From Variovorax gracilis (lineage in GTDB: Bacteria; Pseudomonadota; Gammaproteobacteria; Burkholderiales; Burkholderiaceae_C), in the NCBI RefSeq assembly GCF_030317115.1, contig NZ_JASZYF010000011.1, forward strand, positions 1 to 64,000: a stretch of DNA of 64,000 nucleotides, in the 5' to 3' direction. Position numbers and translations under genes: made by a program. Below the pieces are notes generated by a model that saw nothing but the letters and a program-made list of their open reading frames with translations, made no database searches and was not told where the DNA came from. Numbering within the stretch: the stretch's first letter is position 1; the number at the start of each line of letters is the position of its first letter. Below are positions 14,670 through 25,735 of the stretch, one piece after another.

Positions 14670-15572
14670 CTAGGGCACGAGACCTGCCAGGCTCTTCCGC
14701 AGGAACTCCGCGAACGCATAGGCAATCACCGGAAGCTGCCTCCCCCGCAGGCTCGCCAGCACCAGTTCGCCTCTGGGAAAGCCGCGATCCTCGATGTCGC
14801 GCGCCACGATGTGTCCGTCGTCGAGCGCGGCGCCGATGGCCATCTGGAAAGAGATCGACCGGCGGTCTTCCAGGCAGCCGCGCAGGAACTCGAAGCTGTT
14901 GCTTTCCACCATGCCGTCCAGCTTCGTCGAGCTGCGCGCGAGAAAGCGCTCCAGCAACTGGCGCCCTCCGGTGTCGCGGTTGGGCAGCACCACCGGGTAC
15001 TCGGCGCAGTCGCGCAGGCGCAGTGACGAAGCGCTGCCAGCCGCGAGCGGATGCCTGGCATGCAGGATCGCCATGAGCTTCTGCTCGACCACGATCGCGC
15101 GCTGGATGTCGGCCTCCGGCGCCAGGTTGAACACCAGTGCCAGGTCGGTCTCGAAGCTGCGCAGCGCACGTGCAGCCTGCACGTGGTCGCCGATGTGGAT
15201 GTCGAAGGCGACCAGCGGATGCGTCTTCCGGAATTCGCCGATCACCCCCGGCAGGAACCGCGGCGCCAGCGCCTGGCTCGCCACCAGCCGCACGCTTCCG
15301 CGGCGCAGGCCCTGCAGCTCCTCGATCTCCGAGCGCACGCGCTCCAGGTCGGCGGCGCGGCCGCGGATGTAGCGCACGAACAGCTCGCCGGCCGCCGTCA
15401 GGCGCATGCCGCGCGGCAGCCGCTCGAAGACCGGCGTGCCGAGTTCGTCCTCGATGTCCTGGATGCGGCGGTTCACCGCGGACGGCGCGACGTGCAGCCG
15501 CTCGGCGGCCTGGCGTATCGAGCCCACGCGGGCCACTTCGTCGACGTAGCGCAGAAGACGCAGATGGTTCAT
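14670..15572 (-). CDS. LysR-family regulator of the N-heterocycle cluster
   Basis: This is a 300-residue LysR protein with an N-terminal HTH (residues 17-40, GSIRQAAERLHVAPSAVNRR) and an effector domain beginning near GSVRLVASQAL. It is divergent from the ten-gene catabolic cluster at 15691, with a 118-bp gap that contains a perfect inverted repeat resembling a T-N11-A operator. That is the classic arrangement of a LysR gene and its regulated operon. The effector is probably the ring compound or a ureide intermediate. I chose ATG 15572 (MNHLRLLRYV); ATG 15581 is nine bases further out. Confidence 0.85.
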   Translation of the reverse strand: MNHLRLLRYVDEVARVGSIRQAAERLHVAPSAVNRRIQDIEDELGTPVFERLPRGMRLTAAGELFVRYIRGRAADLERVRSEIEELQGLRRGSVRLVASQALAPRFLPGVIGEFRKTHPLVAFDIHIGDHVQAARALRSFETDLALVFNLAPEADIQRAIVVEQKLMAILHARHPLAAGSASSLRLRDCAEYPVVLPNRDTGGRQLLERFLARSSTKLDGMVESNSFEFLRGCLEDRRSISFQMAIGAALDDGHIVARDIEDRGFPRGELVLASLRGRQLPVIAYAFAEFLRKSLAGLVP

Positions 15573-15606
15573 GCGGCGCATCTTGCAACGATCGTGCCTC
15601 GAATGA

Positions 15607-15627
15607 GCGTTGCCGTTTCGGCAACGC
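15607..15627. promoter_or_regulatory. LysR-type operator: 9-bp inverted repeat with T-N11-A
   Basis: GCGTTGCCG, TTT, CGGCAACGC is a perfect 9-bp inverted repeat with a 3-bp spacer. Its core TTGCCGTTTCGGCAA contains the T-N11-A pattern that LysR proteins bind. It lies in the gap between the LysR gene (start 15572) and the cysteine hydrolase gene (start 15691), in a position to control both directions. Confidence 0.65.
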
Positions 15628-15690
15628 AGCAAGCGCGATAAAGCGTCGGAGCAGAGCACTGTCGGGCACGTCGCGTGCATGACATCGGGC

Positions 15691-16563
15691 ATGAAAGCCC
15701 CATCGCGTCCCCCACGCCCCAGCTTGGCGCCCACGCCGCCCCCTTCGAGGGCATCGTTCGGCCCGGCCGCACACAACGCCTGGCAGCTGCAGGACGGAAA
15801 CCGCGTGAGCTTCGTTCGCAAGGCACGCAAGCCGCGGCCTCTGCTCATCGCCGATGCCGCACCGCAGGCCGTCGAGATCGACCTGGCGTGCACCGCCCTG
15901 CTCGTCGTCGACATGCAGAACGACTTCTGTCATCCCGAAGGCTGGTTCGCGCAGAAAGGCCTGGGCACCAAGGCCGCGCGCAAGCCGATCCCGATGCTGC
16001 AGGCGCTGTTGCCGGCCTGGCGCGACGCAGGCGGCGCGGTGGTGTGGCTCAACTGGGGCATCCGCGCCGACAAGCGCAACCTCGGCCCCACGGTCCAGTT
16101 CAAGGGCAAGCGCACGGCCGATGGCGTGGGCTATGCCGAGCACTCGCCGCTCGACCATGGCCCCTCGCTGGTGCAAGGCTCGTGGGGCGCGCAGGTCATC
16201 GACGAGCTTGAGGTCGCGCCTTCCGACATCAGCGTGCACAAGCACCGCCTCAGCGGCTTCTGGGACAACGAGCTCGACACGCTGCTGCGCCAGCAGGGCA
16301 TCACCACGCTGCTCTTCACCGGCATCAACACCGACCGCTGCGTGTTCTCGACGCTGCAGGACGCCAACTTCCTCGGCTACGACTGCGTGCTGCTGCAGGA
16401 CGCCTGCAGCACGCCATCGCCGGCCTACGTGACCAAGGGCGTCATCTACATCGTGCAGTTGCTGCACGGCTTCGTCGCGAGTGCCGCGTCGTTGGTGCGC
16501 GCCCTTCCACCCGCTTCTTCCGCCTCGTCTTCCATCTCTTCTTCCAGACCCAAGGAGTCCTGA
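15691..16563 (+). CDS. Isochorismatase-fold cysteine hydrolase (RutB/ureide hydrolase-like)
   Basis: The 290-residue product is a cysteine hydrolase of the isochorismatase superfamily. The catalytic triad appears as Asp74 in LLVVDMQNDF, Lys184 in VHKHRLSGF and Cys217 in GINTDRC. Spacings of 110 and 33 residues match those of RutB, the ureidoacrylate amidohydrolase of pyrimidine breakdown. Related enzymes hydrolyse biuret, triuret and carbamates. As the first gene of a ring-opening cluster it likely hydrolyses a ureide or carbamoyl intermediate, releasing carbamate or ammonia. The first 60 residues are a Pro/Ala-rich extension, and the C-terminus ends in a Ser-rich tail (SSASSSISSSRP), so the start is uncertain; ATG 15679 is also possible. 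Confidence 0.83.
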   Translation: MKAPSRPPRPSLAPTPPPSRASFGPAAHNAWQLQDGNRVSFVRKARKPRPLLIADAAPQAVEIDLACTALLVVDMQNDFCHPEGWFAQKGLGTKAARKPIPMLQALLPAWRDAGGAVVWLNWGIRADKRNLGPTVQFKGKRTADGVGYAEHSPLDHGPSLVQGSWGAQVIDELEVAPSDISVHKHRLSGFWDNELDTLLRQQGITTLLFTGINTDRCVFSTLQDANFLGYDCVLLQDACSTPSPAYVTKGVIYIVQLLHGFVASAASLVRALPPASSASSSISSSRPKES

Positions 16564-16565
16564 CC

Positions 16566-17603
16566 ATGAAATTCCCTTTCCCGCACGCCCTGCTGTCCGC
16601 CTGCGGCCTCGCGCTGGCGCTGACCGCTGTGCCCGCCGCCGCGCAGGTGCCGATCAAGGTGGTGCTCAACTGGAAATACGAAGGCCCGCAGTCGTGGTTC
16701 TTCCTGGCGCAGGACAAGGGCTACTTCAAGGAAGAAGGGCTCGACGTCACGATCGATCAGGGAGAAGGCTCGGCCGCGTCGATCCCGAAGGTGGCCGCCG
16801 GCGCCTACCAGGCCGGCTTCGGCGACATCAATGCGCTGGTCGACCTCGCGTCCCGGCGTCCGGCCGATGCGCCGGTCGGCGTCTACATGCTCTACAACAC
16901 GCCGCCGTTCACGCTCGTGGTGAAGAGCGACAGCCCGATCAGGACGCCGAAGGATCTCGAAGGCAAGACGGTCGGCGGCCCGGCCAACGACGGCGCGCTG
17001 AAGCTGTTCCCGGCCTTCGCCAAGATCGCCAGGATCGACGCCGCCAAGGTGAACATCACCAACATGGCGCCCAACCTGCGCGAGCAGATGCTCTCGCGCG
17101 GCCAGATCGACGCCGGCTTCGGCTACGTGACCACGGTCAGCTTCAGCGCCAAGGGCATGGGGCTCGACCCGGCGAAGGATCTGCGCTTCATCCGCTACGG
17201 CGACTACGGCATGGACCTCTATTCCAACACGGTGTTCTTCTCGAAGAGCTTCGTGAAGGAGAACCCGAAGGCCGTGGCCGGCTTCGTGAAGGCGCTCAAC
17301 CGCGCGGTGAAGGAAGTCATCGCGAACCCGGATGCCGGCGTCGACTACGCGATCAAGCGCGAGCCCCTGCTCAAGCGTGAGGTCGAGAAGGAAAAGCTGC
17401 TCGCCACGCTGAAGAACGACATGAGCCACCCCGAGATCGCGCGCATCGGCCTGGGCGACGTCGACGACGCGCGCCTGCGCAAGGACATCGCGATCGTCGT
17501 CGAAGCCAACGCGCTGCCGCGCACGCCCGAGCCGGGCGAGATCTTCGACCGCAGCTTCCTGCCGGCACGCGCCGATCGTCCTTCCAACACCACCACGAAC
17601 TGA
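16566..17603 (+). CDS. ABC transporter substrate-binding protein, NMT1/THI5-like (first copy)
   Basis: The 345-residue product has a signal peptide (MKFPFPHALLSACGLALALT, ending AAAQ) and an NMT1/THI5-like periplasmic binding fold: VVLNWKYEGPQSWFFLAQDKG, YFKEEGLDVTI, GDINAL and VVKSDSPIRTPKDLEGKTVG. This family binds pyrimidines, sulfonates, hydantoins and related compounds in the periplasm for ABC uptake. It shares clear sequence similarity with the second binding protein at 22747. It starts two bases after the cysteine hydrolase stop, with AAGGAG upstream. The ligand is probably the ring compound degraded by the cluster. Confidence 0.88.
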   Translation: MKFPFPHALLSACGLALALTAVPAAAQVPIKVVLNWKYEGPQSWFFLAQDKGYFKEEGLDVTIDQGEGSAASIPKVAAGAYQAGFGDINALVDLASRRPADAPVGVYMLYNTPPFTLVVKSDSPIRTPKDLEGKTVGGPANDGALKLFPAFAKIARIDAAKVNITNMAPNLREQMLSRGQIDAGFGYVTTVSFSAKGMGLDPAKDLRFIRYGDYGMDLYSNTVFFSKSFVKENPKAVAGFVKALNRAVKEVIANPDAGVDYAIKREPLLKREVEKEKLLATLKNDMSHPEIARIGLGDVDDARLRKDIAIVVEANALPRTPEPGEIFDRSFLPARADRPSNTTTN

Positions 17604-17624
17604 ACCCGCACAGGAGACCTGCAC

Positions 17625-18416
17625 ATGGACTTGCAACTGAAAGACAAGGTGACCCTCATCACCGGCCCCGCCAAGGGCATGGGCGCCGCCGTGACGCTGG
17701 CCTTCGCGCGCGAAGGCGCCAGGCTGGTGCTGGCCGGCCGCGACACCGCCGCCATCGAACCCGTGGCCGCCGAGGCGCGTGCGCTCGGCGTGCAGGCCAT
17801 CGTGGTGCCCTGCGACCTGACCGTGGCCGCGCAGACCGAGGCGCTGGCCGCGCATGCGCTCGAAGCCTTCGGCCATGTGGACGTGCTGGTCAACGTGGCC
17901 GGCGGCTCGGGCCCGATCGGCAAGACCGGCTGGGAAACCACCACCGAGGAATTCAACGAGATCGTGCAGCTCAATATGACCGGCTGCTTCAACACCATCC
18001 ACGCCATCCTGCCGTCGATGATCGCGCGCCGCAGCGGCAAGATCGTCAACGTCGGCGGCACCTTCGGCCTCCGCGGGCGCGCCGGCCGGCTCGCGTATTC
18101 GGCTTCCAAGTGGGGCCTGCGCGGCATCACCAAGAGCTTCGCGCTCGAAGCCGGCCCCTACAACATCAACGTCAACAACGTCGCGCCCGGCATGGTGGAC
18201 GGCCCTCGCTTTCGCGAGAAGGTGTGCGCGAACATGGCCGAGAAGATGGGCATCACGCTCGAAGAAGCCATGACGCGCCATGCCGCCGACTACGCACTCA
18301 AGCGCGTCTCCACCGATGCCGACATCGCCAACGCCTGCCTGTTCATGGCGAGCGAGGTGTCGCGCCAGATCACCGGCGTCGACCTGCCCGTCGACGGCGG
18401 CTGGGCCGCACTCTGA
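17625..18416 (+). CDS. Short-chain dehydrogenase/reductase lacking the usual catalytic Ser
   Basis: The 263-residue protein is a classical SDR: nucleotide-binding TGPAKGMG (residues 13-20), NVAG (90-93) and active-site YSASK (Tyr158, Lys162). The residue 13 before the Tyr, normally the catalytic Ser, is Gly145 here, in VNVGGTFG; Thr146 follows. This might be a real change of chemistry or a substituted Thr. It could oxidise or reduce a ring or side-chain group of the cluster's substrate. ATG 17625 has AGGAG eight bases upstream, and the gene lies 21 bp after the binding protein gene. Confidence 0.85.
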   Translation: MDLQLKDKVTLITGPAKGMGAAVTLAFAREGARLVLAGRDTAAIEPVAAEARALGVQAIVVPCDLTVAAQTEALAAHALEAFGHVDVLVNVAGGSGPIGKTGWETTTEEFNEIVQLNMTGCFNTIHAILPSMIARRSGKIVNVGGTFGLRGRAGRLAYSASKWGLRGITKSFALEAGPYNINVNNVAPGMVDGPRFREKVCANMAEKMGITLEEAMTRHAADYALKRVSTDADIANACLFMASEVSRQITGVDLPVDGGWAAL

Positions 18417-18433
18417 ACGCGCGAGGACATCCC

Positions 18434-19894
18434 ATGACCAGAGAAGTCGACCTCGTCATCCGTGGCGCCCGCGTGGTGTCGCCGGACCAGATCATCGAAG
18501 CCTCGGTGGCCATCGCCGGCGAGCACATCGTCGCCGTCGGCCACGACGACACCATGCCGCCCGCGCACGCCGAGATGCGCGCCGACGGCCTCTACCTGCT
18601 GCCCGGCGCCATCGACAGCCACGTCCACTTCCGCGACCCCGGCTATCCGAACAAGGAGACCTGGAAGACCGGGTCCGCCGCTGCCGCGATGGGCGGCGTG
18701 ACCACGGTCTTCGAGATGCCCAACACCAACCCGCCGACCGGCACGGTGGAGGCCCTCCGGATCAAGCTGAAGGCGGCCGAATCGTCGTACTGCGACTTCG
18801 GCATCCACGGCCTGCTGGGCGACGAGAGCATCGACCAGCTCGAAGCGCTGCTCGATGCCGGCGTGACGAGCTTCAAGGCGTTCGTCGGCAACACCTTCGG
18901 CAACCTGCCGGCGCCGACCGACGGCGCGCTGCTCGAAGGCTTCGAGATCCTCGCGCCGCTGGGCATCCGCACGGTGGTGCATGCGGAAAACTCGTCGATC
19001 CTCTTCCGCCGCCAGAAGCACCTGCAGAACGCCGGGCGCATCGACTCGATGGCGCACCTGGCGGCGCGGCCGGCGGTGGCCGAGATCGAGGCGATCAACC
19101 GTGTGCTGACGCTCGCCGAGTGGACCGGCGCGCGCGTGCACATCGCGCACCACAGCGCAGCGGATTCGCTCTACCTGCTGCGCGAGTTCAAGCGGCGCGG
19201 CGTCGACGTGACTGCAGAGACCTGCCCGCAATACCTGCTGCTCAACACCGACCACATGCTGAAGCTCGGCGGCGTGATGCGCGTGAACCCGCCGATCCGC
19301 GAAGCCCGTCACAACCAGCCGCTGTGGGATGCGCTGATGGACGGCACGCTGGACATGATCGCAACCGATCACGCGCCGCACACGCCCGAGGAGAAGACGC
19401 GCGAGAGCATCTGGGAATGCGACTGCGGCTTTCCGGGCGTGGAAACGCAGATGCCGCTGATGCTGACCGAGGTGAATCGCGGCCGGGCTTCGTTGATGGA
19501 CTACGTGCGGTGGAGTTCGGTGGCGCCGGCCCGGGCCTGGGGGCTGTATGGCACCAAGGGCGTGATCGCACCCGGTGCGCATGCCGACATCGCCTTCGTC
19601 GACATGGCGCGCGCCGGCACGCTGTCGCAGAACAAGCTGCAGAGCATCAGCAAGATCTCGCCGTGGAACGGGCGGGCCGTGCAAGGCTATCCGCTGCACA
19701 CGCTGCTGCGCGGGCGCTTCGTGATGCGCGACGGCAAGCTCGTCGCCAATGCGGCGGGCTGGGGCCGTTCCGTCAAGGGCATCCAGAAGATGCCGACCCC
19801 GAAGCCGCGCAACATGGAGCACTACAGCAGCGCCATCGTCGACGCGCCCGCGGGCATCCCGGCGAACGCCGTGCCGCTGGTGGACGCCCTGTGA
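18434..19894 (+). CDS. Dihydroorotase/hydantoinase-type cyclic amidohydrolase
   Basis: The 486-residue protein is a binuclear-metal amidohydrolase. I see SHVHFRDPGY with His63 and His65, Lys148 in SFKAFVG as the likely carboxylated Lys, His183 in VVHAEN, His239 in HIAHHS and Asp312 in TDHAPH. This full set indicates an active enzyme that opens a cyclic amide, as in dihydroorotase, allantoinase, hydantoinase and dihydropyrimidinase. It is longer than dihydroorotase of the pyr pathway because of a C-terminal extension. The start ATG 18434 has GAGGA upstream. Its stop overlaps the GTG start of the next gene. The substrate cannot be read from the sequence. Confidence 0.85.
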   Translation: MTREVDLVIRGARVVSPDQIIEASVAIAGEHIVAVGHDDTMPPAHAEMRADGLYLLPGAIDSHVHFRDPGYPNKETWKTGSAAAAMGGVTTVFEMPNTNPPTGTVEALRIKLKAAESSYCDFGIHGLLGDESIDQLEALLDAGVTSFKAFVGNTFGNLPAPTDGALLEGFEILAPLGIRTVVHAENSSILFRRQKHLQNAGRIDSMAHLAARPAVAEIEAINRVLTLAEWTGARVHIAHHSAADSLYLLREFKRRGVDVTAETCPQYLLLNTDHMLKLGGVMRVNPPIREARHNQPLWDALMDGTLDMIATDHAPHTPEEKTRESIWECDCGFPGVETQMPLMLTEVNRGRASLMDYVRWSSVAPARAWGLYGTKGVIAPGAHADIAFVDMARAGTLSQNKLQSISKISPWNGRAVQGYPLHTLLRGRFVMRDGKLVANAAGWGRSVKGIQKMPTPKPRNMEHYSSAIVDAPAGIPANAVPLVDAL

Positions 19895-21009
19895 GCGCCC
19901 CACAGAAAGTCGACGTGTTCCGCGTGCCCTGTGAAGGGCCGGCCGACCTGTCGGGCGTGCAGGCGCTGGTCGATGCGAAGCACCTCGACCCCCGGCAGAT
20001 CGTCGCCGTGATGGGAAAGACTGAAGGCAACGGCTGCGTCAACGACCACACGCGCGATTTCGCGGCCACGGCCTGGTGCCACTTCCTGGCGCCTCACCTC
20101 GACTGCACGGCCGCGCAGGTGCATGAGCGCGTGGCGCTCGTGATGTCCGGCGGCACCGAAGGCGTGTTGTCGCCGCACTTCACGGTGTTCGCGCGCGGCC
20201 CCGCCCATGCGGCGGAAGTGACGGACGAGAAGCGCCTCGTGGTCGGCATCGCGCACACGCGCGACTTCGCCGCGGAGGAACTCGGGCGCATGGCGCAGGT
20301 CGAGGCCACTGCGGAGGCAGTGAAAGCCGCGATGCGCGACGCCGGCATCGACGACGCGGCGGACGTGCACTTCGTGCAGGTCAAGTGCCCGTTGCTCACG
20401 TCGGCCAAGATCCGCGCGGCGCAGGAGCGCGGCGCGGCCACCGTCACGCGCGACACCTACGAGTCGATGGGCTGGTCGCGCGGGGCCTCGGCGCTCGGCG
20501 TCGGCCTCGCACTGGGCGAGTTCGAGGCCGTCGACGACGCCGCGATCCTGCATGACGGCGCACGGTTCTCGGCACGGGCCTCGGCCTCGGCCGGCATCGA
20601 GCTGGACGGCAACGTGGTCATCGTGCTCGGCGAGGCGGCCGGGAGTGCCTCCCGCTTCCGCATCGCGCACACGGTGATGCAGGACGCGATCGACGGCAAC
20701 AGCGTGCGCCGCATGCTGCGCGAGCGCTTCGGGCTCGACCCGGAGGACGATGCGGACGTCATCGCGTCGCGGCTGGTCAACCTGCTGGCCAAGGCCGAGG
20801 CGAGCCCCGGCGGACTCGTGCGCGAGGCACGCCACACCATGCTCAACGACTCCGACATCAACTCCACGCGCCACGCGCGTGCGGCGGTCGGCGGCGTGCT
20901 GGCTTCGGTGGTCGGGTCCACGGCGCTCTACGTGTCGGGCGGTGCCGAGCACCAGGGGCCGCCCGGCGGCGGGCCGGTCGCCGCCATCTTCGCCATTCCA
21001 TCCCTCTGA
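19891..21009 (+). CDS. Ring-opening amidohydrolase, barbiturase/cyanuric acid hydrolase family
   Basis: The 372-residue product has the three-repeat architecture of the AtzD/TrzD/barbiturase family. Signature features are VDVFRVPC, VAVMGKTEGNGCVND and LVMSGGTEGVLSPH. Three Lys-Ser pairs fit the known dyads: Lys43 with Ser87, Lys165 with Ser231, Lys301 with Ser349 in VSGGAEHQGPPGGGPVA. These enzymes hydrolyse cyanurate to carboxybiuret or barbiturate to ureidomalonate. The start is GTG at 19891, overlapping the preceding stop in GTGA, so the two hydrolases are translationally coupled. The family is small and found in few genera. Which ring this enzyme opens is not determined. Confidence 0.9.
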   Translation: MSAPQKVDVFRVPCEGPADLSGVQALVDAKHLDPRQIVAVMGKTEGNGCVNDHTRDFAATAWCHFLAPHLDCTAAQVHERVALVMSGGTEGVLSPHFTVFARGPAHAAEVTDEKRLVVGIAHTRDFAAEELGRMAQVEATAEAVKAAMRDAGIDDAADVHFVQVKCPLLTSAKIRAAQERGAATVTRDTYESMGWSRGASALGVGLALGEFEAVDDAAILHDGARFSARASASAGIELDGNVVIVLGEAAGSASRFRIAHTVMQDAIDGNSVRRMLRERFGLDPEDDADVIASRLVNLLAKAEASPGGLVREARHTMLNDSDINSTRHARAAVGGVLASVVGSTALYVSGGAEHQGPPGGGPVAAIFAIPSL

Positions 21010-21017
21010 AAGCTGCC

Positions 21018-21914
21018 ATGAGCAATGCCTACATCCAACTCTCCGACGTGATGCTGCGCTACGGCGGCGGCACCATCGCACTGGACCACACGACGCTCGG
21101 CATCGACGAGGGCGACTTCGTGGCGCTCGTCGGCCCGAGCGGCTGCGGCAAGTCGACCATCCTGAAACTCGTGGCCGGCCTCCTGCGGCCCAGCGCGGGC
21201 GCCGTGATCGCGGGCGGCCGCGAGGTCGGCGCGGCCGGCACGCAGCCCGGTGGCGGCACGCATGCGTCGCAGGCGCCGCGGCTGCGCATCGGCCTCGCGT
21301 TCCAGAACCCGACCATGCTGCCGTGGCTCACGATCCGCGACAACGTGATGATTCCGCTCAAGATCGTCGAGCCCTTCCGCCAGCACTTCGGCAAGAAGAA
21401 GCATGGCGAGTACAAGGACCGCGTCGAGGCATTGCTCGCGCAGGTCGGCCTCAAGGGCTTCGGCGACAAGCGGCCCTGGCAACTGTCGGGCGGCATGCTG
21501 CAGCGCGCGTCGCTGTGCCGCGCGCTGGTGCACGACCCCGAACTCCTGCTGCTCGACGAGCCCTTTGGCGCGCTCGACCAGTTCACGCGCGAGGAGCTGT
21601 GGGACATCATGCAGAAGCTGTGGATGGACCGGCGCCCCACGGTGCTGCTGGTGACGCACGACCTGCGCGAGTCCGCCTATCTCGCCAACCGCATCTGCGT
21701 GATGAGCTCGCGGCCCGGCCGCATCCTGGAGACGCGCGAGGTCGGCTTCGCCCGGCCGCGCACGCTGGAGAGCAGCTACGCGCCCGAGTTCGCCACGCTG
21801 GTGCAGCAACTGCGCATGCGCATCGCCGACGCACGGCGCGATGGCGATGCGACGCCACCCGCTGCGGCCGCGACCACGACGGCGACCGCCACGCTGGAAG
21901 AGGTGACGGCATGA
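21018..21914 (+). CDS. ABC transporter ATP-binding protein
   Basis: The 298-residue ATPase shows Walker A GPSGCGKST (residues 39-47), the signature LSGGM and Walker B LLLLDEPFGALD, followed by a VTHDL switch His. It belongs to the nitrate/sulfonate/taurine/hydantoin type (SsuB, TauB-like). An insert rich in Gly and Pro (AAGTQPGGGTHAS) precedes the Q-loop. The C-terminus has a repetitive Ala/Thr tail. It follows the ring-opening hydrolase by 8 bp and overlaps the permease by ATGA. It should power uptake of the ligand held by the two binding proteins. Confidence 0.93.
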   Translation: MSNAYIQLSDVMLRYGGGTIALDHTTLGIDEGDFVALVGPSGCGKSTILKLVAGLLRPSAGAVIAGGREVGAAGTQPGGGTHASQAPRLRIGLAFQNPTMLPWLTIRDNVMIPLKIVEPFRQHFGKKKHGEYKDRVEALLAQVGLKGFGDKRPWQLSGGMLQRASLCRALVHDPELLLLDEPFGALDQFTREELWDIMQKLWMDRRPTVLLVTHDLRESAYLANRICVMSSRPGRILETREVGFARPRTLESSYAPEFATLVQQLRMRIADARRDGDATPPAAAATTTATATLEEVTA

Positions 21915-22690
21915 ACCTCTCCCCTCGAACCCGCCGGCGCCTGCTGTCCGCCGGCGCGCTCATCGGCTTCTTCGTGCTGTGGGAGCTGGTCTGCCTGGCC
22001 TTCGGCGTGTCCGACCTGATCCTGCCGCGGCCGAGCCAGATCGCGAGCGTGCTCATCGAGAAGATGTCGCTGCTGTGGCCGCACGCGGTGCAGACGCTCT
22101 ACACCACCTTCGCCGGCTTCGTGCTCGGCGTGCTGGCGGGCATCGTCATCGGCGTCGTCATCGGCTCGTCCCGGCTTGCCTACGACGTGACCTATCCGCT
22201 GCTGGTCGGCTTCTCCAGCATCCCCAAGGTGGCGGTGGTGCCGCTCTTCGTGGTGTGGTTCGGCGCCGGCACGGTTCCGGCGATCCTGACCTCGATGGTG
22301 ATCAGCATCTTCCCGGTGGTGGTCAACGTCGCGACCGGGCTCGCCAGCACCGAACCCGAGCTGGAGGACGTGCTGCGCGTGCTCGGCGCGCGCAAGCGCG
22401 ACATCCTCTGGAACGTCGGCCTGCCGCGCACGCTGCCCTACCTGTTCGCGTCGCTCAAGATCGCGATCACGCTGTCCTTCGTCGGCACCGTGCTGGCCGA
22501 GACCGTGGCGTCGAACAAGGGCATCGGCACCGTGATGATGATCGCCAGCGGCAACTTCGACGTGCCGATGGTGTTCGCGGGACTCTTCCTGCTGGCCGCA
22601 ATGGGCGTGGCGCTCTATGCCGTGTCCTCGCTGGTCGAACAGCGCATGACCGGCTGGGCGCAGCGCAAGACCGACATGGCGATGGCATGA
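21911..22690 (+). CDS. ABC transporter permease
   Basis: The 259-residue inner-membrane protein begins MNLSPRTRRRLLSAGALI and has six hydrophobic segments. The BPD_transp_1 coupling loop is visible as EPELEDVLRVLGARKRDIL. It is the only permease in the cluster, so it must act as a homodimer and be shared by both binding proteins. The start overlaps the ATPase stop in ATGA. The relatives are SsuC, TauC and hydantoin or pyrimidine permeases. Confidence 0.93.
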   Translation: MNLSPRTRRRLLSAGALIGFFVLWELVCLAFGVSDLILPRPSQIASVLIEKMSLLWPHAVQTLYTTFAGFVLGVLAGIVIGVVIGSSRLAYDVTYPLLVGFSSIPKVAVVPLFVVWFGAGTVPAILTSMVISIFPVVVNVATGLASTEPELEDVLRVLGARKRDILWNVGLPRTLPYLFASLKIAITLSFVGTVLAETVASNKGIGTVMMIASGNFDVPMVFAGLFLLAAMGVALYAVSSLVEQRMTGWAQRKTDMAMA

Positions 22691-22746
22691 GCACGCCGCG
22701 GCCTCTTCTCTCTTCATTTCCCTCTTCATCCCACCCTGGAGCCTCC

Positions 22747-23799
22747 ATGCACCATCGACTCTCGCGCCGGTCCGCGGCCATCGCCTTCGCCGCACTGGCT
22801 TCGCTCGCCGCATGGCTGCCGGCAGGCCCGGCCGTTGCGCAGCCCGTCACGCCCATCAAGTTCGTGCTCGACTGGAAGCTGCAGGGCATCCACGCCTGGT
22901 ACTACCTGGCCGAGGACAAGGGCTACTTCGCGCAGGAGAAGCTGGCCGTCACCATCGACCAGGGCGACGGCTCGGCCGCTGCCGTGACCAAGGTGATGGC
23001 CGGTGCCTACCAGGCCGGTTTCGGCGACGTCAACGCGATCATCCAGAACGCCGTCGCCAAGCCGGGCACGGCGCCGGTGATGGTCTACATGATCTACAAC
23101 CGCGCGCCCTTCGCGCTCATCGTGAAGTCGACCAGCCCGATCAGGACGCTGAAGGACCTCGAAGGCAAGACGCTCGGCACCGTGGCCGGCGGCGCGGCCT
23201 CGCGGATGTTCCCGGTGATCGCGGGCAAGGGCGGCGTCGATGCGGGCAAGGTCAAGTGGACCAACGTGGCGCCGAACCTGCAGGAGCAGATGATGCTGAA
23301 GGACCACGTCGACGGCTCCGCGGTGTTCTCGGTCACCAGCTACATGAACCTGGTGGCGCAGGGCATCGACCCCGACAAGGACATCCGCTGGTTCCACTAC
23401 GGCGACCTCGGCGTCGAGCTGTACGGCAATGGCGTGCTGGTGTCGCAGAAGCTCATCAAGGACAACCCGCAGGCCGTCGCGGGGCTGGTGCGTGCCATCC
23501 ACAAGGGCCTGCGCGATACCATCGCCAACCCCGACGCCGCCATCGCCGCCCTCATGAAGCGCGAGCCGCTGCTGAACAAGGACCTGGAGAAGCGCCGACT
23601 CATGTATACGCTGAAGACCGTGATGCTCACACCCGAAGCCGCCGCCATCGGCCTGGGCGACGTGAGCGATGCGCGCTTCGCGCGCTCACTCATCCAGGTG
23701 CAGGAGGCATTCGAGCTGCCCCGCGTGCCGACCGCAGCCGAGGTCTTCGACCGCCGCTTCCTGCCGCCGCTGGCCGAACGCAAGGTGACGGCTCCATGA
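22747..23799 (+). CDS. ABC transporter substrate-binding protein, NMT1/THI5-like (second copy)
   Basis: The 350-residue product has a signal peptide (MHHRLSRRSAAIAFAALASL, ending AVAQ) and the same fold as the protein at 16566: FVLDWKLQGIHAWYYLAEDKG, YFAQEKLAVTIDQGDGS, AYQAGFGDVNAI and SPIRTLKDLEGKTLG. The two are clear paralogs. The start ATG 22747 has GGAG five bases upstream; an ATG at 22687 overlapping the permease stop gives a longer leader but lacks a good signal. Its stop overlaps the next amidohydrolase. The two copies may bind related ligands through one permease. Confidence 0.88.
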   Translation: MHHRLSRRSAAIAFAALASLAAWLPAGPAVAQPVTPIKFVLDWKLQGIHAWYYLAEDKGYFAQEKLAVTIDQGDGSAAAVTKVMAGAYQAGFGDVNAIIQNAVAKPGTAPVMVYMIYNRAPFALIVKSTSPIRTLKDLEGKTLGTVAGGAASRMFPVIAGKGGVDAGKVKWTNVAPNLQEQMMLKDHVDGSAVFSVTSYMNLVAQGIDPDKDIRWFHYGDLGVELYGNGVLVSQKLIKDNPQAVAGLVRAIHKGLRDTIANPDAAIAALMKREPLLNKDLEKRRLMYTLKTVMLTPEAAAIGLGDVSDARFARSLIQVQEAFELPRVPTAAEVFDRRFLPPLAERKVTAP

Positions 23800-25304
23800 C
23801 GACGCCCGCGGCGGACGCCACCTTTCTCGACTGCGCCTGGCTGCTGGCCGACCCGGGCGAGGAGGCTGCGCGCCGCGATGTGCGTATCGGCCTGTCGGAG
23901 GGGCGCGTGGCTTCCATCGAGGCACAGCCGGGCGCGGGCAGTGGCCGTCGCAGGCTGGCGCTGCCGGCGCTCGCCAACGCGCACGACCATGCGCGCACTT
24001 TTCGCAGCGCCACGCTGGGTGCATTCAACCAGCCGCTGGAAAGCTGGCTGCCCTTTCTCGGCGTGGTGCCGGGCATGGACCCCTACCTCTGCGCCGCGAC
24101 ATCCTTCGCGCGCTCGGTGCGCAACGGCGTCGCGCACCTGATGGTTCACTACACCCGCGTGCAGGGCGGCATGCCCTACTTGGACGAGGCGCGCGCCGTG
24201 GCACGTGCCGCGCGAGATGTCGGCGTGCGCATCGGCTTCGCCGTGGCGATGCGCGACCGCAACGGCATCGCCTACTGCGACGACGCCGCGGTGCTGACCG
24301 CGTTGCGCCCCGGCATCCGGGACGCTGTCGCGAAGCGGCTCGCCGTGCAGCCGGTCGCGCCCGCGCAGCAGCTCGCGCTGGTCGACGAGGTCGCCGCGAT
24401 GGTGCAGGAAGACGGCTGCAGCGACCACGTCACCGTGCAGTACGGCCCCACGGCCGTGCAGTGGTGCAGCACGCCGCTGCTCGAAGCCATCGCGCGGGCT
24501 TCGGCCGACACCGGCCGGCCGGTGCACATGCACTTGCTGGAGACCCAGTACCAGCGCCAATGGGCCGACCGGGTGCATCCGGACGGCATCGTGAAATTCC
24601 TCGACAGCATCGGACTGCTCAGCCGGCGGCTCACGCTCGCGCATTGCGCCTGGGCGCGGCCGGATGAGCTGGCGCTGATTGCCGAACGCGGCGCGACCAT
24701 CGCAGTCAACACGAGTTCGAACCTGGGCCTGAAGTCCGGCATCGCTCCCCTGCCCGAGATGCTCCGGCAAGGCTGCCGCGTAGCCATGGGACTTGACGGC
24801 ATGGCCTTCGACGAGGACGACGACGCGCTGCGCGAGGCGCGCCTGGCCTACGCGCTGCACCGTGGATGGGGCTTCGACACCACGATGACACCCGGGCAGC
24901 TCTGGGGCTTCGCGTCGCGACACGGCCCACGCAGCGTGTCGGGCTCCGCCGCGGCGTCGAGCGGCCGCATCGCGCCCGGCGCACCGGCCGACATGGTGCT
25001 GCTGGACTGGGACGCGCTCGATGACGACGCCCTCTTCGCCGACACGGACCCGCTCGACCTGCTGCTGGCGCGCGGCAACGGCACGCACATCGCGGACGTG
25101 ATCGTCGGCGGCCGCACCGTGGTCGAGGCGGGCCGCGTGACCGGCATCGACGAGGCCGCGCTGCGCACCGAGTTGCTCGCACGCATGCGCGCCGCCCTGG
25201 CCGCCGACGCTGCGCACGGCGGCTGGCGCACCACCGTGAACGCGCTCGCGCAGGACCTTGCCCCCTTTTATCGCGACGGCCGCATGGGCGGCTGTTGCGG
25301 CTGA
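23796..25304 (+). CDS. Amidohydrolase-superfamily deaminase/chlorohydrolase-like enzyme
   Basis: The 502-residue protein has an N-terminal HxH metal motif NAHDHAR (His63, His65), then VHMHLLET, LAHCAWARPDEL and GLDGMAFDED, the pattern of mononuclear-metal aminohydrolases such as AtzB, TrzN, guanine and cytosine deaminases. These enzymes remove an amino, chloro or alkylthio group from a ring. It could act at the start of the pathway, converting an amino-substituted ring into the hydroxy form that the ring-opening enzyme accepts. That is inference. The ATG at 23796 overlaps the previous stop. No truncation is seen; the C-terminus ends in MGGCCG. Confidence 0.83.
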   Translation: MTTPAADATFLDCAWLLADPGEEAARRDVRIGLSEGRVASIEAQPGAGSGRRRLALPALANAHDHARTFRSATLGAFNQPLESWLPFLGVVPGMDPYLCAATSFARSVRNGVAHLMVHYTRVQGGMPYLDEARAVARAARDVGVRIGFAVAMRDRNGIAYCDDAAVLTALRPGIRDAVAKRLAVQPVAPAQQLALVDEVAAMVQEDGCSDHVTVQYGPTAVQWCSTPLLEAIARASADTGRPVHMHLLETQYQRQWADRVHPDGIVKFLDSIGLLSRRLTLAHCAWARPDELALIAERGATIAVNTSSNLGLKSGIAPLPEMLRQGCRVAMGLDGMAFDEDDDALREARLAYALHRGWGFDTTMTPGQLWGFASRHGPRSVSGSAAASSGRIAPGAPADMVLLDWDALDDDALFADTDPLDLLLARGNGTHIADVIVGGRTVVEAGRVTGIDEAALRTELLARMRAALAADAAHGGWRTTVNALAQDLAPFYRDGRMGGCCG

Positions 25305-25324
25305 CCCCCAGGAAACACCGAGAC

Positions 25325-25735
25325 ATGACCCGCATCAAGATCACCGCCGGCGGCTTCGACTTCGTCGCCGTCACGCATCCCGACGCACCGCTCACCGTGG
25401 CGGCGTTCTCCAAGCTGCTGCCCTATAGGCAACGGCTCATCCACGTGCGCTGGAGCGGCGAAGGCTGCTGGGTGCCGCTGGGCGAGTTCCAGCTCGGCGT
25501 CGGCTTCGAGAACCACACCAGCCACCCGTCGGTGGGCGACATCCTGTTCTACCCAGGCGGCTACAGCGAGACCGAGATCATCCTGGCCTACGGCGCCTGC
25601 AGCTTCGCGAGCAAGATGGGCCAGCTCGCCGGCAACCACTTCCTGACGATCGTGGAAGGCAAGGAGAACCTGCGCGCACTCGGGAACAAGGTGCTGTGGG
25701 AAGGCGCGCAGGACGTGGTGTTCGAGCTGGCCTGA
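25325..25735 (+). CDS. DUF3830 (cyclophilin-like fold) protein
   Basis: The 136-residue protein begins MTRIKITAGGFDFVAV and has the DUF3830 features VRWSGEGCWVPLG, ENHTSHPSVGDILFYPG and GNHFLTIVEG. The family has a cyclophilin-like barrel known from structural genomics and no proven function. It is often next to hydantoin, pyrimidine or ureide genes, from memory. Here it is the last gene of the operon, 20 bp after the deaminase-like gene. A signal peptide is absent, so it is cytosolic. It may bind or isomerise a pathway intermediate. Confidence 0.82.
   Translation: MTRIKITAGGFDFVAVTHPDAPLTVAAFSKLLPYRQRLIHVRWSGEGCWVPLGEFQLGVGFENHTSHPSVGDILFYPGGYSETEIILAYGACSFASKMGQLAGNHFLTIVEGKENLRALGNKVLWEGAQDVVFELA

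Follow-up and report, generated by a model that had tools for sequence, protein, structure and literature searches.

A LysR-type regulator gene and the ten genes that diverge from it in Variovorax gracilis form an operon whose products probably remove amino groups from small nitrogen-rich rings and cleave these rings to make their nitrogen available. The operon lies in the first 64,000 nucleotides (the window) of contig NZ_JASZYF010000011.1 (assembly GCF_030317115.1). Its row encodes an isochorismatase-like cysteine hydrolase (CysH), an NMT1/THI5-like binding protein (SBP1), a short-chain dehydrogenase/reductase (SDR), a dihydroorotase-type amidohydrolase (AHL), an AtzD-type ring-opener, the ATPase and permease of an ABC importer, a second binding protein (SBP2), a deaminase/chlorohydrolase-type amidohydrolase (DEAM) and a DUF3830 protein. 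The best reading, in which we place even confidence, is an operon under an AtzR-family regulator that would import small N-heterocycles, putatively amino- or oxo-substituted, and open their rings. A preliminary description of this DNA had proposed an operon for N-heterocycles that includes a dedicated importer and regulator as well as two ring-openers of different families and a deaminase-type enzyme, and the present analysis supports such a catabolic-looking gene set.

Ring-opener, regulator and biuret branch

The AtzD-type protein scores 494.9 bits against PF09663 (cut-off 25) and 491.3 bits against TIGR02714 (cut-off 153.1), and the nearest solved protein is AtzD of Pseudomonas sp. ADP (415 bits, versus 298 for barbiturase). 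PMC3758960 gives five positions that discriminate AtzD (Arg195, Thr321, Arg325, Gly345 and Gly346 in AtzD numbering) from barbiturase (Asn195, His321, Lys325, Val345 and Ser/Ala346). The window's enzyme (R/T/R/G/G) has the AtzD state at five of five positions and the barbiturase state at none, and all three Ser-Lys dyads are present. The enzyme is predicted from these residues to open cyanuric acid. Of the earlier label “barbiturase/cyanuric acid hydrolase,” the second half is favored, and barbiturase is disfavored as an identity on the same count.

Among 87 aligned rows, only an Embleya protein (L085, N/H/K/V/A) and an Acidithiobacillus caldus protein (L086) deviate at the five positions; L075 is cut short. 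The NCBIfam AtzD model was dropped as a discriminator because the Embleya protein, with its barbiturase-like residues, also passes (486 bits, cut-off 360); the A. caldus protein scores 372. A maximum-likelihood tree, with several long branches elsewhere flagged as unsure, places the window's enzyme in a 66-row clade that is sister to a six-row clade containing AtzD of plasmid pADP-1 (72 rows jointly, support 100/98). In five loci of the window's clade (L022, L030, L031, L039 and L045), AtzD stands among AtzE/AtzF/AtzH and/or BiuH/TrtA genes, so a single clade includes AtzD from either type of cluster.

On the A. caldus megaplasmid (L086:1842-12232), an AtzD-family gene of another signature group neighbors genes for xanthine-dehydrogenase-type subunits, XdhC, ureidoglycolate lyase, AtzE, HpxZ and gamma-glutamyltransferase, which may belong to a route of oxidative purine or pyrimidine breakdown. 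On two Enterobacterales plasmids (L087:4710-13056, NZ_CP081318.1; L084:2274-12664, NZ_CP084773.1), AtzD-family genes lie beside genes for FdrA, DUF1116 and carbamate kinase, with DUF2877 and a nucleobase symporter also present in L087 and AtzF in L084. This context suggests that the opened ring may be degraded by carbamoyl transfer with ATP gain.

By sequence kinship (Table 1) and a TGCC-N5-GGCA dyad, the LysR protein is classed as an AtzR-type regulator with an AtzR-type operator. The atzR-atzD gap of pADP-1 holds GTGCCGGATCGGCAC, whose core is common to TTGCCGTTTCGGCAA in the window. Within 300 bp upstream of the LysR gene, the exact core occurs in 32 of 43 core loci (AtzD-type loci that also encode SDR and AHL; see below), 7 of 9 AtzR-type loci and 3 of 10 distant loci; of 20,000 random 320-bp segments from core loci, 2.6% contain it as background. 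The core is absent from the 300 bp searched in two AtzR-type and seven distant loci. A tree of 46 selected LysR rows, with a thinned set of 24 core loci in addition to the window, is not resolved at its base. AtzR is called cyanuric acid-responsive in PMC6834077; the window's regulator shares its family, and cyanurate is a candidate effector.

The genome of V. gracilis holds a single AtzD-family gene; two other genomes of the family (G056 and G177) hold three each over the Pfam cut-off. Homologues of biuret, triuret, carboxybiuret and allophanate hydrolases are present apart from the ten-gene row, on a contig (C2) without AtzD. They include BiuH (78% identity over 225 amino acids), TrtA (63% over 217), AtzE (60%), AtzH (73%) and an AtzF homologue (769 bits, cut-off 511), accompanied by a BMP binding protein (63%). 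L007, L027, L029 and L049 combine the operon or part of it with a BiuH and/or TrtA gene within one 21-kb locus. The ring-opener signature, the AtzR-like regulator and operator, and the biuret-branch homologues indicate that the operon does touch the s-triazine/biuret network, and the earlier statement that the enzyme set does not match s-triazine pathways falls on these three points.

Operon layout and conservation

Pfam and NCBIfam profile searches find all eleven genes, with the families first assigned to them (Table 1). Of the nine junctions of the ten co-oriented genes, four are 4-bp overlaps and the others are gaps of 2, 21, 17, 8 and 20 bp, in keeping with the tight packing (overlap or less than 25 bp) originally described, and 118 bp separate the row from the divergent LysR gene. 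SBP1 and SBP2 share 52% identity over 318 columns. No transposase is encoded among the genes of the row, and the profile searches, which covered the window row, find no Rut enzyme besides the RutB-like CysH among the eleven genes.

Table 1. Features of the operon; coordinates are window positions, fixed after start-codon choice.
Feature	Position	Strand	Evidence
LysR, AtzR family	14670-15572	-	PF00126/PF03466; 51% identity to pADP-1 AtzR over 299 columns
Predicted operator, 21-bp dyad GCGTTGCC-N5-GGCAACGC, core TGCC-N5-GGCA	15607-15627		LysR-CysH gap
CysH, isochorismatase-like cysteine hydrolase, RutB/BiuH relative	15691-16563	+	PF00857 126 bits; Asp-Lys-Cys triad
SBP1, NMT1/THI5-like binding protein 1	16566-17603	+	PF09084
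SDR, short-chain dehydrogenase/reductase	17625-18416	+	PF00106
AHL, dihydroorotase-type cyclic amidohydrolase	18434-19894	+	PF01979; shares metal ligands and R/N/H trio with E. coli PyrC
AtzD-type ring-opener, predicted cyanuric acid hydrolase	19891-21009	+	PF09663; five-residue signature; tree
ABC importer ATPase	21018-21914	+	PF00005
ABC importer permease	21911-22690	+	PF00528
SBP2, NMT1/THI5-like binding protein 2, SBP1 paralogue	22687-23799	+	PF09084
DEAM, deaminase/chlorohydrolase-type amidohydrolase	23796-25304	+	PF01979; model matches AtzA, TrzN, isocytosine deaminase
DUF3830 protein, cyclophilin-like fold	25325-25735	+	PF12903 106.9 bits; model matches 3kop

The row is far from a chance assembly. 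A contig scan with the AtzD-type protein as query gave 105 relatives, the best 80 of which were taken as loci, and gene content was read from homology-based maps with identity thresholds set per script. AHL occurs in 48 and SDR in 45 of these 80 loci; the 45 with both are the core loci, five of which are shorter than 12 kb, so that gene absences there mean little. This genome-neighborhood check, proposed in the preliminary description, thus finds the gene set conserved, and gene order is kept across many Burkholderiales genera. The Variovorax soil strain J2P1-59 has a set with 96-100% protein identity to that of the window. All 132 plasmid records that match are below 60% identity. One metagenome bin with part of the operon (L044) is titled Bordetella parapertussis; its neighbors in the AtzD tree are other Burkholderiales bins, and the bin name may be wrong.

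Within the core loci, the gap between AtzD and AHL is at most 198 bp in 41 of 45, and AtzD lies outside the row, past the LysR gene, in four (L040, L041, L043 and L052). CysH is present in 40 and DUF3830 in 36. The deaminase slot is filled by DEAM in 25 loci and by a CodA-type amidohydrolase in 7, never by both; neither is found in 13, some of them on short or cut contigs, and two of these (L035 and L038) have a third amidohydrolase downstream with 30-32% identity to DEAM. SBP2 and the deaminase usually travel together, and the pair may follow the permease or DUF3830, precede the LysR gene or, with the CodA-type enzyme, stand between CysH and SBP1. Occurrence is patchy. Of 200 genomes evenly drawn from the family, five (V. 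gracilis counted) have AHL orthologues (E <= 1e-150), all five with an adjacent AtzD gene, and G122, the other genome of the genus in this draw, has neither.

Further out, AHL is found in 2/369 genomes of the class and 4/398 of the phylum (V. gracilis counted), as well as in 9/219 genomes of the order of G831 and 6/220 of that of G886 (each counting the named genome). The distant set consists of 17 AHL loci outside the family, without V. gracilis itself, viewed as stretches of up to ∼20 kb (only 6.2 kb for L147, and two stretches for G369). SDR accompanies AHL in 16 of the 17 clusters, making SDR-AHL the most constant pair, and has 62-75% identity in the distant Pseudomonadota core. DEAM is present at 43% identity or more in 11, and DUF3830 in 3 (G993, G1036 and G782). 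AtzD is in the cluster in only three (G369, G993 and G1036), and CysH in exactly the same three (Fisher p = 0.0015, ignoring kinship). The binding proteins, SDR, AHL, importer and deaminase thus seem to be the more ancient portion, to which AtzD and CysH would have been added jointly. The notion that AtzD is a mere guest of this core finds support in the distant genomes and none within the family.

Enzymes, proposed pathway and alternatives

AHL has the metal ligands and R/N/H positions of Escherichia coli PyrC in 52 of 54 rows, the other two being cut short, and AllB and HyuA differ from AHL and PyrC at this trio. In dihydroorotase, the trio presumably binds the substrate carboxylate, which would give AHL a substrate with a carboxylate next to a ring nitrogen. 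AHL exceeds the cut-off of the AllB model TIGR03178 by less than 2 bits (359.7 versus 357.85) but carries R and H at the positions that are S and C in AllB.

CysH was described at the outset as a RutB-like cysteine hydrolase with a catalytic triad, and this holds: the protein matches PF00857, its Asp-Lys-Cys triad is invariant, as expected of an isochorismatase-like enzyme, and RutB is the best-scoring named model. By cut-off, CysH is neither RutB (133.9 bits versus 377.95) nor BiuH (113.5 bits versus 370, which BiuH of Rhizobium johnstonii 3841 passes with 428.7). A short frame between LysR and SBP2 in another locus (L026:3871-4341) matches CysH over 59 residues (54%) and looks like a CysH remnant.

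DEAM falls under every NCBIfam cut-off listed for named deaminase/chlorohydrolase families (best 119.2 bits versus 609). Its structure model, with a mean predicted local distance difference test score (pLDDT) of 81.6, matches AtzA, TrzN, isocytosine deaminase and adenosine-deaminase-like structures at ∼20-24% identity. Viral contigs gave four pattern matches to DEAM, none of them a relative. DEAM ends with a Cys-Cys pair (window 25293-25298), the first Cys of which is invariant and the second nearly so among 21 aligned homologues. The DUF3830 model (pLDDT 84.6) matches 3kop, with weaker matches to the Pictet-Spenglerases KslB and McbB; a sequence search of the PDB gave no match for DUF3830 up to E 0.1, and a literature search found nothing on it. 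The remaining four structure models have pLDDT values of 58-77.

The following pathway may be proposed, the order of its steps being an inference. One importer would serve both paralogous binding proteins, with SBP2 most likely delivering the aminated form of the ring and SBP1 its deaminated form. DEAM would then strip the exocyclic amine, most likely converting an ammelide-like compound to cyanuric acid, which the AtzD-type enzyme is predicted from its residues to open to carboxybiuret/biuret. CysH may act on the opened product, as its co-occurrence with AtzD suggests, and the remaining nitrogen would be freed by the BiuH, TrtA, AtzE, AtzH and AtzF homologues whose genes lie on the other contig. 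SDR and AHL would form an older second branch acting on a carboxylate-bearing ring, as the AHL trio suggests, and DUF3830 may be an accessory protein, perhaps an enzyme.

Several lines of evidence bear on a deaminate-then-open line. The nearest plasmid match (37%) of the CodA-type enzyme is an amidohydrolase encoded close to AtzD on plasmids of Klebsiella and Aminobacter; on the Klebsiella plasmid, carbamate kinase and IS3 genes stand between the two. This amidohydrolase is 30% identical to AtzC; PMC4577212 gives 31% identity to AtzC for the ammelide aminohydrolase TrzC, and we infer that the Klebsiella plasmid enzyme is TrzC-like. In L007, which also has BiuH and TrtA, and in L059, which has AtzE and AtzH, DEAM directly follows AtzD, and SDR and AHL are missing. 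Such placement, together with the unlike amidohydrolases that fill the deaminase slot, supports deamination followed by ring opening. The presence of AtzE and AtzH without CysH in L059 suits a role for CysH in cleaving the next amide bond. Since SDR-AHL is also found without AtzD, this branch must have another function.

Several observations weigh against the cyanurate-centered part of this proposal. The core lacks AtzD in its cluster in 14 of 17 distant loci; of three such genomes checked for AtzD elsewhere (G782, G831 and G886), G831 has one AtzD-family gene outside the cluster, and none is present in the whole genomes of G782 and G886. The main job of the core therefore need not be cyanurate. 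Similarly, clusters that lack AtzD have LysR proteins with 49-51% identity to AtzR (except L173, 46%, and L145, 40%), so the effector is not deducible from similarity. The exact operator core is absent from the 300 bp searched in 11 of 43 core loci. SDR and AHL lack an obvious function on cyanurate, DEAM appears to belong to no named family among the NCBIfam models, and the NCBIfam AtzD model passes a barbiturase-like protein.

In a second reading, possible and clearly less probable than the first, a natural pathway for a carboxylated cyclic ureide (hydantoin-, dihydropyrimidine- or imidazolone-type) is primary, and AtzD would be a later addition that serves a cyanurate-like side product. Tentatively, DEAM would remove an imino or amino group, SDR would adjust the redox state, AHL would open the ring, and CysH or another amidase would remove the carbamoyl group. 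The constancy of SDR-AHL and the dihydroorotase trio fit this pathway, as does G886, a genome without AtzD in which SDR, AHL and DEAM are accompanied by genes of the M20-hydrolase and HyuA types (families assigned by reading the sequences). However, AtzD sits beside AHL in every AHL genome drawn from the window's family, and DEAM also occurs with AtzD in the absence of SDR and AHL (L007 and L059).

A doubtful reading, with chemistry proposed in part from the residue trio, is that the operon preserves the natural, pre-herbicide setting of cyanuric acid hydrolase in the salvage of oxidized-purine or aminotriazine rings. It is similarly doubtful that SDR and AHL reduce and open a carboxylated s-triazine, e.g. 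allantoxanate (5-azaorotate, oxonate), to a ureidoglycine-type product, and there is a slim chance that the deaminase-AtzD line takes the decarboxylated, cyanurate-type relatives. Literature on oxonate, cyanuric acid and 5-azauracil, searched by title or abstract start, yielded no paper on such a conversion. If true, the AtzR-AtzD pair of herbicide plasmids derives from such a system.

A route for barbiturate or another pyrimidine, with the AtzD-type enzyme as barbiturase and CysH as a ureidomalonase-like enzyme, is unlikely: RutB is the top named model for CysH and the Pfam family of the ring-opener includes barbiturase, but the ring-opener has no barbiturase residue at the five positions, whereas the Embleya homologue exemplifies a barbiturase-like set. 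A recent xenobiotic cluster assembled for synthetic s-triazines is suggested by AtzD, the kinship of the regulator to AtzR and a deaminase from the fold group of AtzA and TrzN, but is very improbable given the gene order kept across genera, the reach of the core into distant Pseudomonadota, the low identity of all plasmid matches and the lack of a transposase in the row.

Known systems and significance

The operon resembles atzR-atzDGEHF of pADP-1 in the five AtzD residues, the AtzR kinship of its LysR protein and the palindrome in the regulator-operon gap. In contrast, the window row lacks AtzE/G/H/F and has CysH, SDR, AHL, DEAM and DUF3830, and its importer is NMT1-type with two binding proteins rather than BMP-type. 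The BiuH-AtzD-TrtA region on pRL10 of R. johnstonii 3841 likewise places AtzD beside isochorismatase-like cysteine hydrolases, but CysH is only 31% identical to BiuH and 30% to TrtA, and the transporter and other enzymes differ. As in the melamine/ammelide route (TrzC-TrzD; AtzC), an amidohydrolase deaminase accompanies AtzD, with a CodA-type stand-in in 7 of 45 core loci; however, DEAM is from another amidohydrolase subgroup, and no TrzC-type gene was found in the row. AHL shares metal ligands with PyrC and AllB and the R/N/H trio with PyrC only, lacking the AllB residues at two trio positions; unlike both, it sits in a catabolic-type row. A RutB-like cysteine hydrolase recalls the Rut operon, but CysH scores far below the RutB cut-off and no other Rut enzyme is in the row.

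A search by title or abstract start, with incomplete coverage of the literature, found no description of the operon, which agrees with the earlier term “undescribed” and falls short of proving it. The AtzD/AtzR system itself is known; what we could not find described is the rest of its setting, the core of binding proteins, importer, SDR, AHL and deaminase. The operon may show the natural role of cyanuric-acid-opening enzymes. Its importer, regulator, operator and deaminase, together with the AtzD-less core, offer handles (two binding proteins, one promoter and one deaminase) toward the natural substrate.

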